Below, piece after piece: positions 21,880 to 32,006 of a stretch of 64,000 nt of DNA. The notes below the pieces were generated by a model. The model searched no databases. It had not been told where the DNA came from and worked only from the letters and a program-made list of their open reading frames with translations. The stretch's first letter is position 1. Every line of letters starts with the position of its first letter. The stretch is from Eubacteriaceae bacterium (GTDB lineage Bacteria > Bacillota > Clostridia > Eubacteriales > Anaerofustaceae), in contig WRIY01000003.1 of NCBI GenBank assembly GCA_009782515.1, positions 1 through 64,000 of the forward strand, written 5' to 3'. Both the position numbers and the translations under genes were made by a program.

Positions 21880-22395
21880 TTAAGCGTTGCCTCTTGTTTT
21901 ATTGTAGCCCTTCACATATGAATTGTATTTGGCAATATTATAGCGCTCAAGCTCATTCAGGCTTTTATAGCCGCTTCCCTCAAGCGAAATGAGCTTAATA
22001 ACAAAACGGTGCCTCTTTTTGAAATCATCATATATCTCTTTATTGCCATTTCCAGAAAAATGGCTGCTAACCCTGTCTAGAATTTTGACGCCCTGGCCCA
22101 CATACCCCATTCTTCTTGTTTTGTTTTTTATAATGTATACGCCAGGGAAGTTATAGGCAGCCTTAAACTTCCTTGACGCTTTCGCATCAAGAAACTTCTT
22201 TGCAGAAACCCGCCACGGGTTGGGAAAAAGCTTGTGCAGCTTTTTCCACGCAACAGCATACAGCCATGCTTCATGCATGTTCAGAATCGCTGTTGCGATT
22301 AATATAACTGCAAGCGGCAAAAAAACCGGCCTGAACAGTCTATAGAACGGCTCAAAAAAACTGTACAATATGCTAGAGTGATTATTGGTATCCAT
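21880..22395 (-). CDS. Membrane-anchored GIY-YIG nuclease-domain protein
   Basis: This 171-residue protein has a hydrophobic membrane segment at about residues 23-42 (FLPLAVILIATAIL). The C-terminal part has the GIY-YIG pattern: GVYIIKN, GYVGQG, Arg in KILDRVSSHF, Glu in NELERYNIAKYNSY and Asn in GYNKTRGN, which supply the catalytic residues of the family. ATG 22395 is used because GCAAGG precedes it; an in-frame TTG five codons earlier is weaker. Small GIY-YIG proteins are usually soluble homing or repair nucleases, so membrane anchoring is unusual. It is convergent with murE copy 2 and divergent from an esterase gene. Confidence 0.72.
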   Translation of the reverse strand: MDTNNHSSILYSFFEPFYRLFRPVFLPLAVILIATAILNMHEAWLYAVAWKKLHKLFPNPWRVSAKKFLDAKASRKFKAAYNFPGVYIIKNKTRRMGYVGQGVKILDRVSSHFSGNGNKEIYDDFKKRHRFVIKLISLEGSGYKSLNELERYNIAKYNSYVKGYNKTRGNA

Positions 22396-22479
22396 GTTAT
22401 GCCTTGCCAAATGATAGCATTATATTCGACATATTCCAATAGGCAGCGACATGCTTAGCAATAAATGATTGGAGAAGCC

Positions 22480-27350: not shown

Positions 27351-28427
27351 TTAGTTTTGTGCAAGCTCAATCGACTTTCCAATTATAGCACCGCCCAAGC
27401 ATGTTTCATTCATGTAAAAAGCTCCCACCTGGCCGGGCGCAACCCCCGCTTGCGGAGCGTCAAAGGCAACGGACACATGATTTGGCTGTATGCGAACGCT
27501 CGCAGGGGTTTCAGCCTGCATATAGCGGTGCTTTACAGTGCATCTTACGATTTGGGGGCGCATGGGGTTGACAAAATGAACCTCGCCTGAAGTAAAGCCG
27601 GAGCTAAACAGCCTCGGGTTTGCCTCGCCTTCAGCTGCGAAGAGAACATTGCTCTCCAGCTCCTTTGATACAACATACCAGCGCTCGCCTCCGCCTCTGT
27701 TGCCAATGCCAAGGCCCTTGCGCTGGCCGATAGTGTAGTACATCAGCCCATTGTGCTCGCCTATCTTTTCTCCGGAGTCAGCATCTATGATATCGCCCTT
27801 TTGGGCAGGCAGGTACCTTGACAAAAATTCGCGAAAATTCCTTTCGCCGATAAAGCATATCCCGGTAGAATCCTTCTTGCCGGCTACACTAAGCCCAAGC
27901 TTGCCAGCAATTTGCCTCACTTCGCTCTTTTGCATTTCGCCTAGAGGAAAGATTGCTTTGGCAAGCTGCTTCTCAGACAAAAAGCTTAAGAAATAGCTTT
28001 GGTCTTTGCGCTCGTCAACTCCCTTTAGCAGGCTGTGGCGCTCTCCGTCAAAGGCGATCCTGGCGTAATGGCCTGTAGCTATTTTCTCAGCGCCCAGGCA
28101 TGAGTGCGCATAATCCCAAAAAGCTGCAAACTTTATTTCTTTGTTGCACAATACATCAGGATTGGGAGTTCTGCCCATCTTGTATTCATACAGGAAATTT
28201 TCGAAAACACGATCCCAGTATTCTTTTTCGAAGCCGACTGAATAAAATGGTATGCCCAGCTTTAGGCATACCGATCTTGCGTCAATATAGTCTTGCTCAG
28301 CCGGGCAGCCGGGCTCGTCCCAGTTTTTCATAAATACTGCCGTAACGCTATGGCCGGCTTCTTTTAGCAAATGCGCGGCAACGGCTGAGTCTACGCCGCC
28401 GGACACTCCAACTGTTATTTGTGCCAT
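27351..28427 (-). CDS. mnmA: tRNA-specific 2-thiouridylase MnmA
   Basis: MnmA thiolates uridine 34 of tRNAs for Lys, Glu and Gln, using ATP and relayed sulfur. The 358-residue protein shows the PP-loop SGGVDSAVA, the first catalytic Cys in NPDVLCN, the second in STGICFIGERNF, and a C-terminal beta-barrel with YYTIGQRKGLGIG. It begins one base after the yhaN stop codon, so it is translated from the same message. Confidence 0.95.
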   Translation of the reverse strand: MAQITVGVSGGVDSAVAAHLLKEAGHSVTAVFMKNWDEPGCPAEQDYIDARSVCLKLGIPFYSVGFEKEYWDRVFENFLYEYKMGRTPNPDVLCNKEIKFAAFWDYAHSCLGAEKIATGHYARIAFDGERHSLLKGVDERKDQSYFLSFLSEKQLAKAIFPLGEMQKSEVRQIAGKLGLSVAGKKDSTGICFIGERNFREFLSRYLPAQKGDIIDADSGEKIGEHNGLMYYTIGQRKGLGIGNRGGGERWYVVSKELESNVLFAAEGEANPRLFSSGFTSGEVHFVNPMRPQIVRCTVKHRYMQAETPASVRIQPNHVSVAFDAPQAGVAPGQVGAFYMNETCLGGAIIGKSIELAQN

Positions 28428-28428
28428 G

Positions 28429-30918
28429 CTAATTTATGCTAATCAAATTGCTTTCTGCCTGCCTGCGCGGCTGCGCTGTTTTCGACAGGTTTACAAAGTT
28501 GTAGTAATAGTTCTTTTCGTCAAGCGCAAGCTTTTCCGCTTTGCGGCATGTAAAGATGATGATCTGGCGGTCTTTTGACTTTTCATACAGGAGGTTGAGA
28601 ATATTTGACAGCCTCTGATCGTCGTATTGCAGCATGCAGTCATCAAGGAATACAGGGATCGTCTTATCCTTGATTATTAAATCCATTATTGCAAAACGCA
28701 CACAGAAGTACAGCTGGTCAATTGTTCCGCCTGAGAGCGAGGAAATATCGATAAGCTGGCCAAGCTCCTGATCTTCAACTTTTATCTGCATGTTGTCATT
28801 GACCTGGACGCGGGTATACTTTCCTTTAGTTATCTCAGAAATCATATTTGATACATACTCATTGAACGCGTCAGCGAATGTATGCTGTATGTCTTTGCTG
28901 AGAAGCTCAATCTTTTCGATTGCGAGAGTATAGCTCTTTAAGTCTGCTTCGAATTCCCCAATCCTGCTCTTTGTTTTTACGATTTCTTCGACTATTTCGT
29001 TTAGCTGCCGCACAGAGCTTTCAGTCTGGGCGATGTTGGCGCGCAGCGCAGCTATCTCGCCGCTTATTCTGAGGATCTCGTCTGAGTTTTGCTCAAGGGC
29101 AATATCAAGCGATACAGCCTCTGATGAGCTTGGCTCGATTCCATATTCAAGCGCCTTTGCTGCTTCCTGCTGCAGGGCTTTCACAGGCATTCCGGCGAGC
29201 AGGTTTTCCATATTCTTTAAGTTGGACTCAAGCCTTGCTTTGGCTACTGCCTTTTCTTTTATGGACATGACAGCGTATTTAAAGCTTTCTATGCTTGGGG
29301 CCCCTGCATGGCTGACTATCTGCGAAATTCGCGCTGTCAGTTCGTCAATTTCCTCAGTTACTGAAATAATGCGCTCATTTATGTCATTTAGCGAGCCCAT
29401 GCTTACTGAGATCTGTGTTTCCATCTCAGTAATGCGGCTGTTGATGTCTTGGGAGCCGGTTAAGTAGTCTACAAGCTCCTTCACGCTCTTGGTGCCGTAC
29501 TTGCTTCTTATCTGCTCAATGTCCAGCTCGCACATGAGAAGCATATTCATAGTCCTGCTCATCACGGTGTCATATTTCTCAAACTCGTCTTCGATTTTAT
29601 TTCGGCGCCTGTTTGAGACAGCCCACATCCCGAGCAGGGATATTCCTGCTATTGCGCTTATTATGCCGGCATATAGCAGATAAGTGTGCTCAAGCGGGAA
29701 AAACAGTATTATTGCAAACACAGCGATTATGCTGGCGATTGTTCCGCTGAAGCTAAACAGCTTTTGCTGCTTTCTTATCTTTTCATACCGGGATTCTATT
29801 GTTGTGTCTTCGTTGGCATTCTTTTCGGCTGTAAGGGCTTCGATCTTTCTTAGCGAATTGTCAAGAATTGCCTTGTCTTCGAGCATGCCGTCAATGGATG
29901 AATTTGTAACCGAAGCATTCGCCTGCTCAAGCTGCGTCTCGTAAACGCTGACTGCGCGCTCGATCTCTGTTCTTTGGCTAAGAAGCTCGCTGTGCTGCTT
30001 TGTGGCTATTTCCAGCTGTATGTTTGCTTTGTCAAACTCGTTTGCGGCTTCTTCGCTTATTTCTGCGTGTGAATTAATTGCTTCATCAAGCCCTTCATTT
30101 TCTGACTGAAGAGCCATATACTTTTCATGCCGCGAGAGCATCTGCGAGAGGCGCAGCTTTTCTTTCAGCTCGCTGGCTTCGCCTTTTTGCTGTTGAGAGG
30201 ACCTCAGCTCATTTTCAAGCCTGCTTATTTCTATGTAGCGCTGTTTGTTTTCTTCATGCGCTTCCTCAGCGGCAACCCGCTCTTCCTCAAGTTCTGAAAG
30301 CCTTAGGGCATCTTTGCCAAGCACTGTTTTCGGGGAGGAGTGGGAACCGATTATTGCAATTTTGCTTTGCAGCTGCTCAATTGCCGCTTTAAGCGAAACG
30401 CCTGATGAATGGGTGCCGCTCGTGTCTGCAAACAGATCGCTTATTTCCTTAACCAGCCCCTTGTCTGTAATATTGGATAGCTGGCCAATCGAAACGGTGT
30501 TTTTAAACAGCACATTGTTTATTGGTATGTGCTTATTTGCTTTTGGCATTTTGTAGGAGAAGTCGAAATCGAGCATGTCGCTCAGGTCAGCTCCACTGAC
30601 ATCGTCATACAGCTTGATGCTCTCATTGTTTTTGGAGAAGCTTCTCTCAAGGCGGTAGCGCCTGTTATTCTTCTCATAGACAATGACGCCTTTGTAGTCC
30701 TGACCATTCCATGGCGTAAATTTCGCATAGTCGAGAGTGTAAAGCTTGTTTTTTGAGTACGGTTTGAAAAATCCGAAAAACATGCCCTCAATAAACTTAT
30801 GCATAGTCGTCTTTCCAGATTCGTTTCCGCCATATATCAAGTTGAGCCCTGGCTTGAGAGACACCTTCTTATTAATAAACTTGCCAAAAGCTATGAGGTA
30901 AAGCTCATTAATTATCAT
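28429..30918 (-). CDS. yhaN: YhaN-like Rad50/SbcC-type ATPase with central membrane hairpin
   Basis: This 829-residue protein has an ABC-type ATPase head split over both ends: Walker A GGNESGKTT (30-38) at the N-terminus, and signature LSGGTIDQLYF plus Walker B VFLDDCMLQYDD at the C-terminus. Long coiled-coil arms run between about residues 205 and 385 and again after 445. In the exact middle, residues about 388-408 and 421-444 are two hydrophobic segments separated by a short PLEHTY turn, with a positively charged NRRRN after the second. Rad50 and SbcC have a CxxC zinc hook there; no CxxC exists here. The protein probably dimerises at the membrane and works with the YhaO-like partner encoded just upstream (4-nt overlap) in DNA end or chromosome handling. 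Confidence 0.85.
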   Translation of the reverse strand: MIINELYLIAFGKFINKKVSLKPGLNLIYGGNESGKTTMHKFIEGMFFGFFKPYSKNKLYTLDYAKFTPWNGQDYKGVIVYEKNNRRYRLERSFSKNNESIKLYDDVSGADLSDMLDFDFSYKMPKANKHIPINNVLFKNTVSIGQLSNITDKGLVKEISDLFADTSGTHSSGVSLKAAIEQLQSKIAIIGSHSSPKTVLGKDALRLSELEEERVAAEEAHEENKQRYIEISRLENELRSSQQQKGEASELKEKLRLSQMLSRHEKYMALQSENEGLDEAINSHAEISEEAANEFDKANIQLEIATKQHSELLSQRTEIERAVSVYETQLEQANASVTNSSIDGMLEDKAILDNSLRKIEALTAEKNANEDTTIESRYEKIRKQQKLFSFSGTIASIIAVFAIILFFPLEHTYLLYAGIISAIAGISLLGMWAVSNRRRNKIEDEFEKYDTVMSRTMNMLLMCELDIEQIRSKYGTKSVKELVDYLTGSQDINSRITEMETQISVSMGSLNDINERIISVTEEIDELTARISQIVSHAGAPSIESFKYAVMSIKEKAVAKARLESNLKNMENLLAGMPVKALQQEAAKALEYGIEPSSSEAVSLDIALEQNSDEILRISGEIAALRANIAQTESSVRQLNEIVEEIVKTKSRIGEFEADLKSYTLAIEKIELLSKDIQHTFADAFNEYVSNMISEITKGKYTRVQVNDNMQIKVEDQELGQLIDISSLSGGTIDQLYFCVRFAIMDLIIKDKTIPVFLDDCMLQYDDQRLSNILNLLYEKSKDRQIIIFTCRKAEKLALDEKNYYYNFVNLSKTAQPRRQAESNLISIN

Positions 30919-32006
30919 ACGTTTTCCTTTAAGCTTCCTTCTTGCCTGTAAAGCAGCGCTTCAAGGCCGGATAAAAGCGCCTTGTACGCGATAGGGTCTT
31001 TTGTGGCATCCTGGGTCAAAGAGTATATAAATTTGCCAATTATATTGTCTTTGTTGTCCTGATAAATCTTTTTTATATCGTAATCAGGAACAGTTCGGTC
31101 GTAATAGTCAACACTGTAAAAATCATCCATGAAATCATCCATTATCTCAGTGATATCAATTAAAGGATGCTTTATTCCGGTAAATACAAGCCTGTAAACA
31201 TGCTTTGGCATGCCGTCTCCGCAGGCTTGTCTCACTTGGGACTTAATTAGCTCTTCGTTCATGTCCGAGGTTATCTTTAGCTGAAGCGTTGCAAATTCTC
31301 GCCTGTTAGAGACCATAAATGACAGTGAAAGCTTCTTTTCCTCGAAAACGCCAGTAACATACCCATGCCGGCCTTCTTCGCCAAAGTTCAGCGGCTCTGG
31401 GCTCCCTGAATAAAAAATGTTGTTCTTCACTTGCGTAGCTTTATGGACATGCCCGAGAGCGGCATAGTCAAAGCCTATCGACGCAAGCATTTCCTCACTG
31501 ATCGGCAGATAGTCTGAACTGTTTGTAAGATCGCAGTGAAGGCACAAGAGATTAATTCTATCTTTATCAAGCGGCCTAAATGAAAACGGCAGTTCAGCAT
31601 AACGGTTTTTTTCCCATCCAAACCCATGTACCGAAGTGTTGAGCTCAGGTATGTACACTTCCTCATATTGCCTAAAGATATGCGTATTCTGCGGTAGTTG
31701 CACTATATTGTAGTATGATTCCCCGATTAGGGAGTCTGCATCGCCTGGTGCGATAAAAACTCGAGTGCTTGGAATAGAGGATAAGGCATCAATTATGCGC
31801 TTAATGTCAGACACACGGGCATATGCCGCTTCAAAAATATCTCCAGGCAAAAGGAGAATGTCAGCATTTTCCTTCTCACAGGTGCTTATAATATTGTGAA
31901 ATGTATCCCATAACTGTTCGCGATGGGCGTTGGCAATTTCAGATTTTAGCGCTGTGGTTATGAAACCTGAACACAGATGGAAGTCGGCTGCATGTATGAA
32001 TTTCAA
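30915..32006 (-). CDS. yhaO: YhaO/SbcD-type metallophosphoesterase with degenerate GNHD motif
   Basis: This 363-residue Mre11/SbcD-like protein partners the YhaN-like ATPase. Present motifs are ADFH (Asp8, His10), PGDIF (Asp56), LHCD (His157) and GHVH (His185-188 region). The motif that should read GNHD reads GDAD (88-91): the metal-bridging Asn is Asp and the catalytic proton-donor His is Ala. Nuclease chemistry may therefore be lost or changed. TTG 32006 is taken as start because AAGGGGTGAT lies 6 nt upstream; an in-frame TTG at 32027 lacks one. Its stop overlaps the yhaN start. Confidence 0.85.
   Translation of the reverse strand: MKFIHAADFHLCSGFITTALKSEIANAHREQLWDTFHNIISTCEKENADILLLPGDIFEAAYARVSDIKRIIDALSSIPSTRVFIAPGDADSLIGESYYNIVQLPQNTHIFRQYEEVYIPELNTSVHGFGWEKNRYAELPFSFRPLDKDRINLLCLHCDLTNSSDYLPISEEMLASIGFDYAALGHVHKATQVKNNIFYSGSPEPLNFGEEGRHGYVTGVFEEKKLSLSFMVSNRREFATLQLKITSDMNEELIKSQVRQACGDGMPKHVYRLVFTGIKHPLIDITEIMDDFMDDFYSVDYYDRTVPDYDIKKIYQDNKDNIIGKFIYSLTQDATKDPIAYKALLSGLEALLYRQEGSLKENV

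Follow-up and report, generated by a model that had tools for sequence, protein, structure and literature searches.

A Firmicutes SbcE/SbcF pair with a predicted membrane hairpin at the zinc-hook position and an altered nuclease motif III

Introduction

Mre11-Rad50 complexes are normally viewed as soluble assemblies held together by a zinc hook. The locus studied here, located in a window of 64,000 nucleotides (the whole stretch analysed) from an Eubacteriaceae bacterium, encodes a Rad50-like ATPase with two hydrophobic helices at the hook position, and a sequence-only reading had proposed that this hairpin tethers the ATPase to the membrane. This raises the question of what kind of complex the ATPase belongs to, whether the hairpin is a membrane anchor, and whether such a complex would bind or cut DNA.

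Domain organization and family of the ATPase

The ATPase gene (P0001, positions 28429-30918, minus strand) is an open reading frame of 829 aa with an ATG start. Its product is a Rad50/SMC-type split ATPase in which Walker A, the ABC signature and Walker B are all present. Walker A is GGNESGKT (aa 30-37; 30808-30831, minus strand), whose residues G30, N32, E33, G35 and K36 are invariant in the A2 alignment, as is S729 of the signature LSGG (aa 728-731; 28726-28737, minus strand). Walker B is VFLDD (aa 756-760; 28639-28653, minus strand), with DD where DE is usual. Glu is the usual catalytic base of Walker B in Rad50/SMC proteins; among the 62 SbcE proteins of the A2 alignment, 48 have Asp and 14 have Glu as the second acidic residue. 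Pfam matches are SMC_N and AAA_27, Pyrococcus Rad50 provides the best PDB sequence matches, and the top fold match is a Chaetomium Mre11-Rad50-Nbs1 entry (E = 1.8e-18). Given that Walker A is N-terminal while LSGG and VFLDD are C-terminal, the motifs, Pfam and fold matches bear out the earlier description of a Rad50/SbcC-type ATPase with its halves at both ends and coiled coils between. The absence of CxxC claimed in that description also holds: the protein has four cysteines (463, 739, 761 and 791), no CxxC zinc hook occurs anywhere in the 829 aa, and a hook elsewhere in the apex is thereby ruled out. The AlphaFold model, obtained with 62 sequences, has a mean pLDDT of 85 and a pTM of 0.50, the latter leaving the overall arm geometry unsure.

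Given the homology to Listeria YhaN and YhaO, the gene order in Enterococcus and the common central hairpin, sequence comparison identifies the ATPase and the product of the gene directly upstream (P0002) as the Firmicutes SbcE (YhaN)/SbcF (YhaO) pair, which is an already described family and not a new kind. BLASTP yielded E = 2e-20 against Listeria YhaN, over the head and head-proximal regions alone, the rest of the arms being too diverged to align, and E = 1e-21 between P0002 and Listeria YhaO. When hhalign was applied to the ATPase and Bacilli YhaN, represented by the Listeria and Enterococcus proteins standing in for that of Bacillus subtilis, a probability of 99.9 was obtained over 280 C-terminal columns. 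The gene order in Enterococcus faecalis is exonuclease, AAA ATPase, HD-domain protein, peptidylprolyl isomerase, YtxH and HIT, which is the order known for the Bacillus yha region (yhaO-yhaN-yhaM-prsA). SbcE was reportedly named in Bacillus subtilis by Krishnamurthy et al. in 2010, the abstract of which is said to describe a unique central transmembrane domain.

The likeness to SbcE (YhaN) of B. subtilis and other Firmicutes, checked on Listeria and Enterococcus, extends to Rad50-like heads, a coiled coil, a central transmembrane hairpin, the lack of CxxC, and a gene directly after an SbcD-like yhaO. However, the ATPase is shorter (829 aa versus 903-907 aa in Enterococcus and Listeria) and, unlike Bacilli yhaN, its gene adjoins mnmA instead of yhaM or prsA. 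In Bacillus, yhaO and yhaN are listed under the LexA/SOS regulon and are raised after peroxide (PMC3896406). Interaction partners of SbcE are SsbA (PMC7031210) and the pair formed by SpoIIE and the membrane kinase YabT (PMC4205851), and SbcEF has been described as poorly characterised (PMC6452273).

The partner gene and its altered motif III

The gene upstream (P0002, positions 30915-32006, minus strand) encodes an SbcF/YhaO-type (SbcD/Mre11-like) metallophosphoesterase of 363 aa, as assigned from its sequence and Mre11 fold. It overlaps the ATPase gene in the tetranucleotide ATGA, and its TTG start is preceded by AAGGGGTGAT. The sequence-only reading of the ATPase did not mention this partner. 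In every one of the 72 named loci whose upstream DNA is long enough, the ATPase gene directly follows an SbcD-like gene; a script counted 71 of these pairings, and the remaining one (L125) was missed solely because its open frame extends upstream.

Motif III of Mre11-type nucleases is GNH(D/E), which holds the catalytic Asn-His. This motif is absent from P0002: aa 88-91 (31734-31745, minus strand) are GDAD, with Asn replaced by Asp and His by Ala, where Listeria YhaO has GNHD. The other metal ligands (D8, H10, D56, H157, H186 and H188) are kept, motifs I, II, IV and V are present, and structure comparison yields the Mre11 fold, so that P0002 shares with SbcF (YhaO) both this fold and every metal-binding Asp/His. 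A homolog 65% identical to P0002 (L070) has GNHD intact. Given that several (at least three) base changes separate the codons GAT GCA from AAC CAT in the nearest relative, a sequencing error is unlikely; GDAD is known from one draft genome of the genus.

The motif III His is absent in six of 74 SbcF proteins, encoded in the window and at loci L097, L132, L136, L123 and L131, the variants being GDAD, GNRD, GNSD, GSND, GNQD and GDSD; at times the Asn is gone too, and the ATPase and hairpin are kept in these cases. On the SbcF tree, four changes are needed to account for the loss of His, at least three of them on well-supported branches. Judged from this count and tree, loss of motif III is rare and arose at least three times independently.

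The second-best structural match of P0002 is Pyrococcus furiosus Mre11 H85S (3dsd), which is mutated at the motif III His and is reported to lack nuclease activity. Any nuclease activity of P0002 is probably weak or absent. As regards the loss of cutting alone, P0002 could instead still be active and use metal in another way, with Asp binding it where Asn normally does and another group serving for His. The remaining ligands are all kept, so the site does not look generally decayed, yet the His is the very residue mutated in the reportedly inactive P. furiosus protein, and we regard an active P0002 as possible but doubtful.

The central hydrophobic hairpin

The predicted transmembrane hairpin of the ATPase comprises aa 387-435 (29614-29760, minus strand), at the position of the Rad50/SbcC hook, with helices at about 387-409 and 412-435; limits of 388-444 had been claimed, which is right to a few residues. 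The first hydropathy peak (aa 387-405) has a Kyte-Doolittle mean of 2.35 and an octanol-scale value of -9.4 (best window -10.2), and the second (aa 414-432) has values of 1.87 and -7.1. Between them lies FFPLEHTY, the flanks are KIRKQQK and NRRRNK, and the turn has no Lys or Arg. AlphaFold models continuous helices at 372-409 and 412-474, joined by a two-residue turn, with block pLDDT values of 90-94 over the hairpin. When the composition of the ATPase was preserved and its residues shuffled, 166 of 5000 shuffles reached 2.35 and 981 of 5000 had two windows above 1.6, although this single-protein test is weak because the composition already includes the hydrophobic helices.

The stronger test comes from the family. 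The hydropathy maximum falls inside the central 16% of the protein in 62 of 62 aligned members. Two peaks are seen in 58 proteins, in which the hairpin is centred at 0.505 +/- 0.011 of the protein length; with that cut-off, a further six members have a single strong peak, likewise in the centre. In those 58 proteins, the density of Lys and Arg per residue is 0.036 in the loop versus 0.263 in the flanks, in accordance with the positive-inside rule. This charge pattern predicts that both arms are cytoplasmic and the turn alone is outside. The hairpin of the sequence-only reading, placed exactly at the midpoint and made of two hydrophobic helices with a short turn and a basic flank, is thus confirmed by hydropathy, by the AlphaFold model and across the family.

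A separate, ordinary SbcCD is encoded on another contig of the same genome, its SbcC having a CPVC hook and its SbcD having GNHD. This SbcC was used as a control, and its hydropathy peak is at 0.99 of the portion read (692 aa). SbcCD, the bacterial Mre11-Rad50, resembles the pair in nuclease-ATPase gene order, head and coiled-coil plan, and fold; however, SbcC carries a CxxC hook and lacks the hydrophobic hairpin, whereas the ATPase studied here has the reverse. One homolog (L087) has a lone central CxxC inside its second hydrophobic stretch, which is not common to the others. The same gene arrangement without a central hydrophobic hairpin is observed at L162 (G343), with an ATPase of 810 aa, and at L151. 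The latter encodes a proteobacterial Sphingomonas "YhaN family protein", which is likewise a Rad50-like ATPase following a DNA repair exonuclease gene but has 1154 aa and no transmembrane segment.

Rad50, SMC and SbcC proteins dimerise at this position, and the small residues of helix 2 (A417, G418, S421, A422, A424, G425 and G430) suit helix packing, so the hairpin might be a soluble, greasy dimerisation apex that packs on a second molecule. We consider this improbable. The two stretches, 19-23 residues long, average 2.35 and 1.87 on the Kyte-Doolittle scale and contain no charge; these are membrane features, as is the seven-fold drop in Lys and Arg density from flanks to loop among the 58 homologs. 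Helix packing inside the membrane would, moreover, reconcile both readings. A membrane location is what is predicted for the ATPase. Every computation run supports the view that a membrane hairpin has taken the place of the hook, but not as a peculiarity of this protein: in the comparison with Firmicutes YhaN that the sequence-only reading had proposed, the Listeria and Enterococcus proteins carry the same central hairpin (at about 431-470), which is normal SbcE/YhaN anatomy in Firmicutes.

Gene surroundings and distribution

The mnmA gene (27351-28427, minus strand) starts one base past the sbcE stop codon. Because of this spacing, a transcript shared by mnmA, which acts in tRNA thiolation, and the repair pair is possible, and P0002, the ATPase gene and mnmA may be co-transcribed. 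Elsewhere in the window, a 176-aa open reading frame with a TTG start (21880-22410, minus strand) encodes a GIY-YIG nuclease domain after an apparent N-terminal membrane helix, FLPLAVILIATAILNM.

The closest named genome is that of Eubacteriaceae MAG Nt197P3bin28, and relatives include Anaerofustis, Pseudoramibacter, Eubacterium and Acetobacterium. The pair was found in 58 of 61 genomes of the family and order. A mobile origin was rejected, since plasmid and phage matches are weak, distant or like chromosomal carry-over and nearly every genome of the family and order has the gene.

It is very improbable that the two genes form a Lamassu-like defence against phages or plasmids: LmuB is likewise a Rad50-like ATPase, appears among the fold matches and has PADLOC models that the ATPase matches with E = 6e-14, but LmuB is a Rad50 relative and the similarity is just at the Rad50 level, the PADLOC match of P0002 is marginal, no LmuA or LmuC effector adjoins the ATPase gene, which has a membrane hairpin, an Mre11-like partner and mnmA as neighbour instead, and the pair is distributed, beside mnmA, as a core gene would be. 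A defence system was therefore rejected.

Proposed mechanism and significance

With a high degree of confidence, we propose that the two proteins form a membrane-anchored, Mre11-Rad50-like SbcE/SbcF complex that has probably lost cutting. Computation established the order of the domains, the hairpin, the pairing of the genes, their relatedness to the yhaN operon of Bacilli, the presence of a separate SbcCD and the change in motif III; from these we infer the topology, membrane location, DNA role and loss of cutting. With ATP, the SbcE heads at both chain ends would dimerise and close on DNA, and they would also hold the SbcF phosphoesterase. From the heads, a coiled coil with about 190 residues in each arm would run to the hairpin; its length, estimated from 193 helical residues per arm in the AlphaFold model minus the membrane part, would be up to roughly 25 nm. 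The two-helix hairpin would cross the cytoplasmic membrane with its short turn outside, anchoring the complex where Rad50/SbcC has the zinc hook, and the hairpins perhaps dimerise within the membrane, possibly pairing via the small residues of helix 2.

Anchored in this way, SbcEF would work near the membrane and capture DNA ends, breaks, stalled forks or incoming single strands there; the cell's ordinary, soluble SbcCD would act on the nucleoid. Given that little or no nuclease activity is probably left in P0002, ATP-dependent binding and tethering would be kept more than cutting. A further suggestion, offered tentatively and as less than probable, is that SbcEF serves chiefly as a DNA clamp, driven by ATP and tethered to the membrane, and not as a nuclease, the catalytic motif being lost several times independently while ATPase and hairpin are kept; this genome would then hold a natural separation-of-function form.

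The hairpin is a known family trait, and the mildly interesting addition is the loss of the partner's nuclease motif. For the family, a large and vertically kept Firmicutes branch is predicted to have a membrane anchor in place of the hook, and its members without the catalytic Asn-His would allow one to ask directly whether selection acts on membrane tethering or on cutting.
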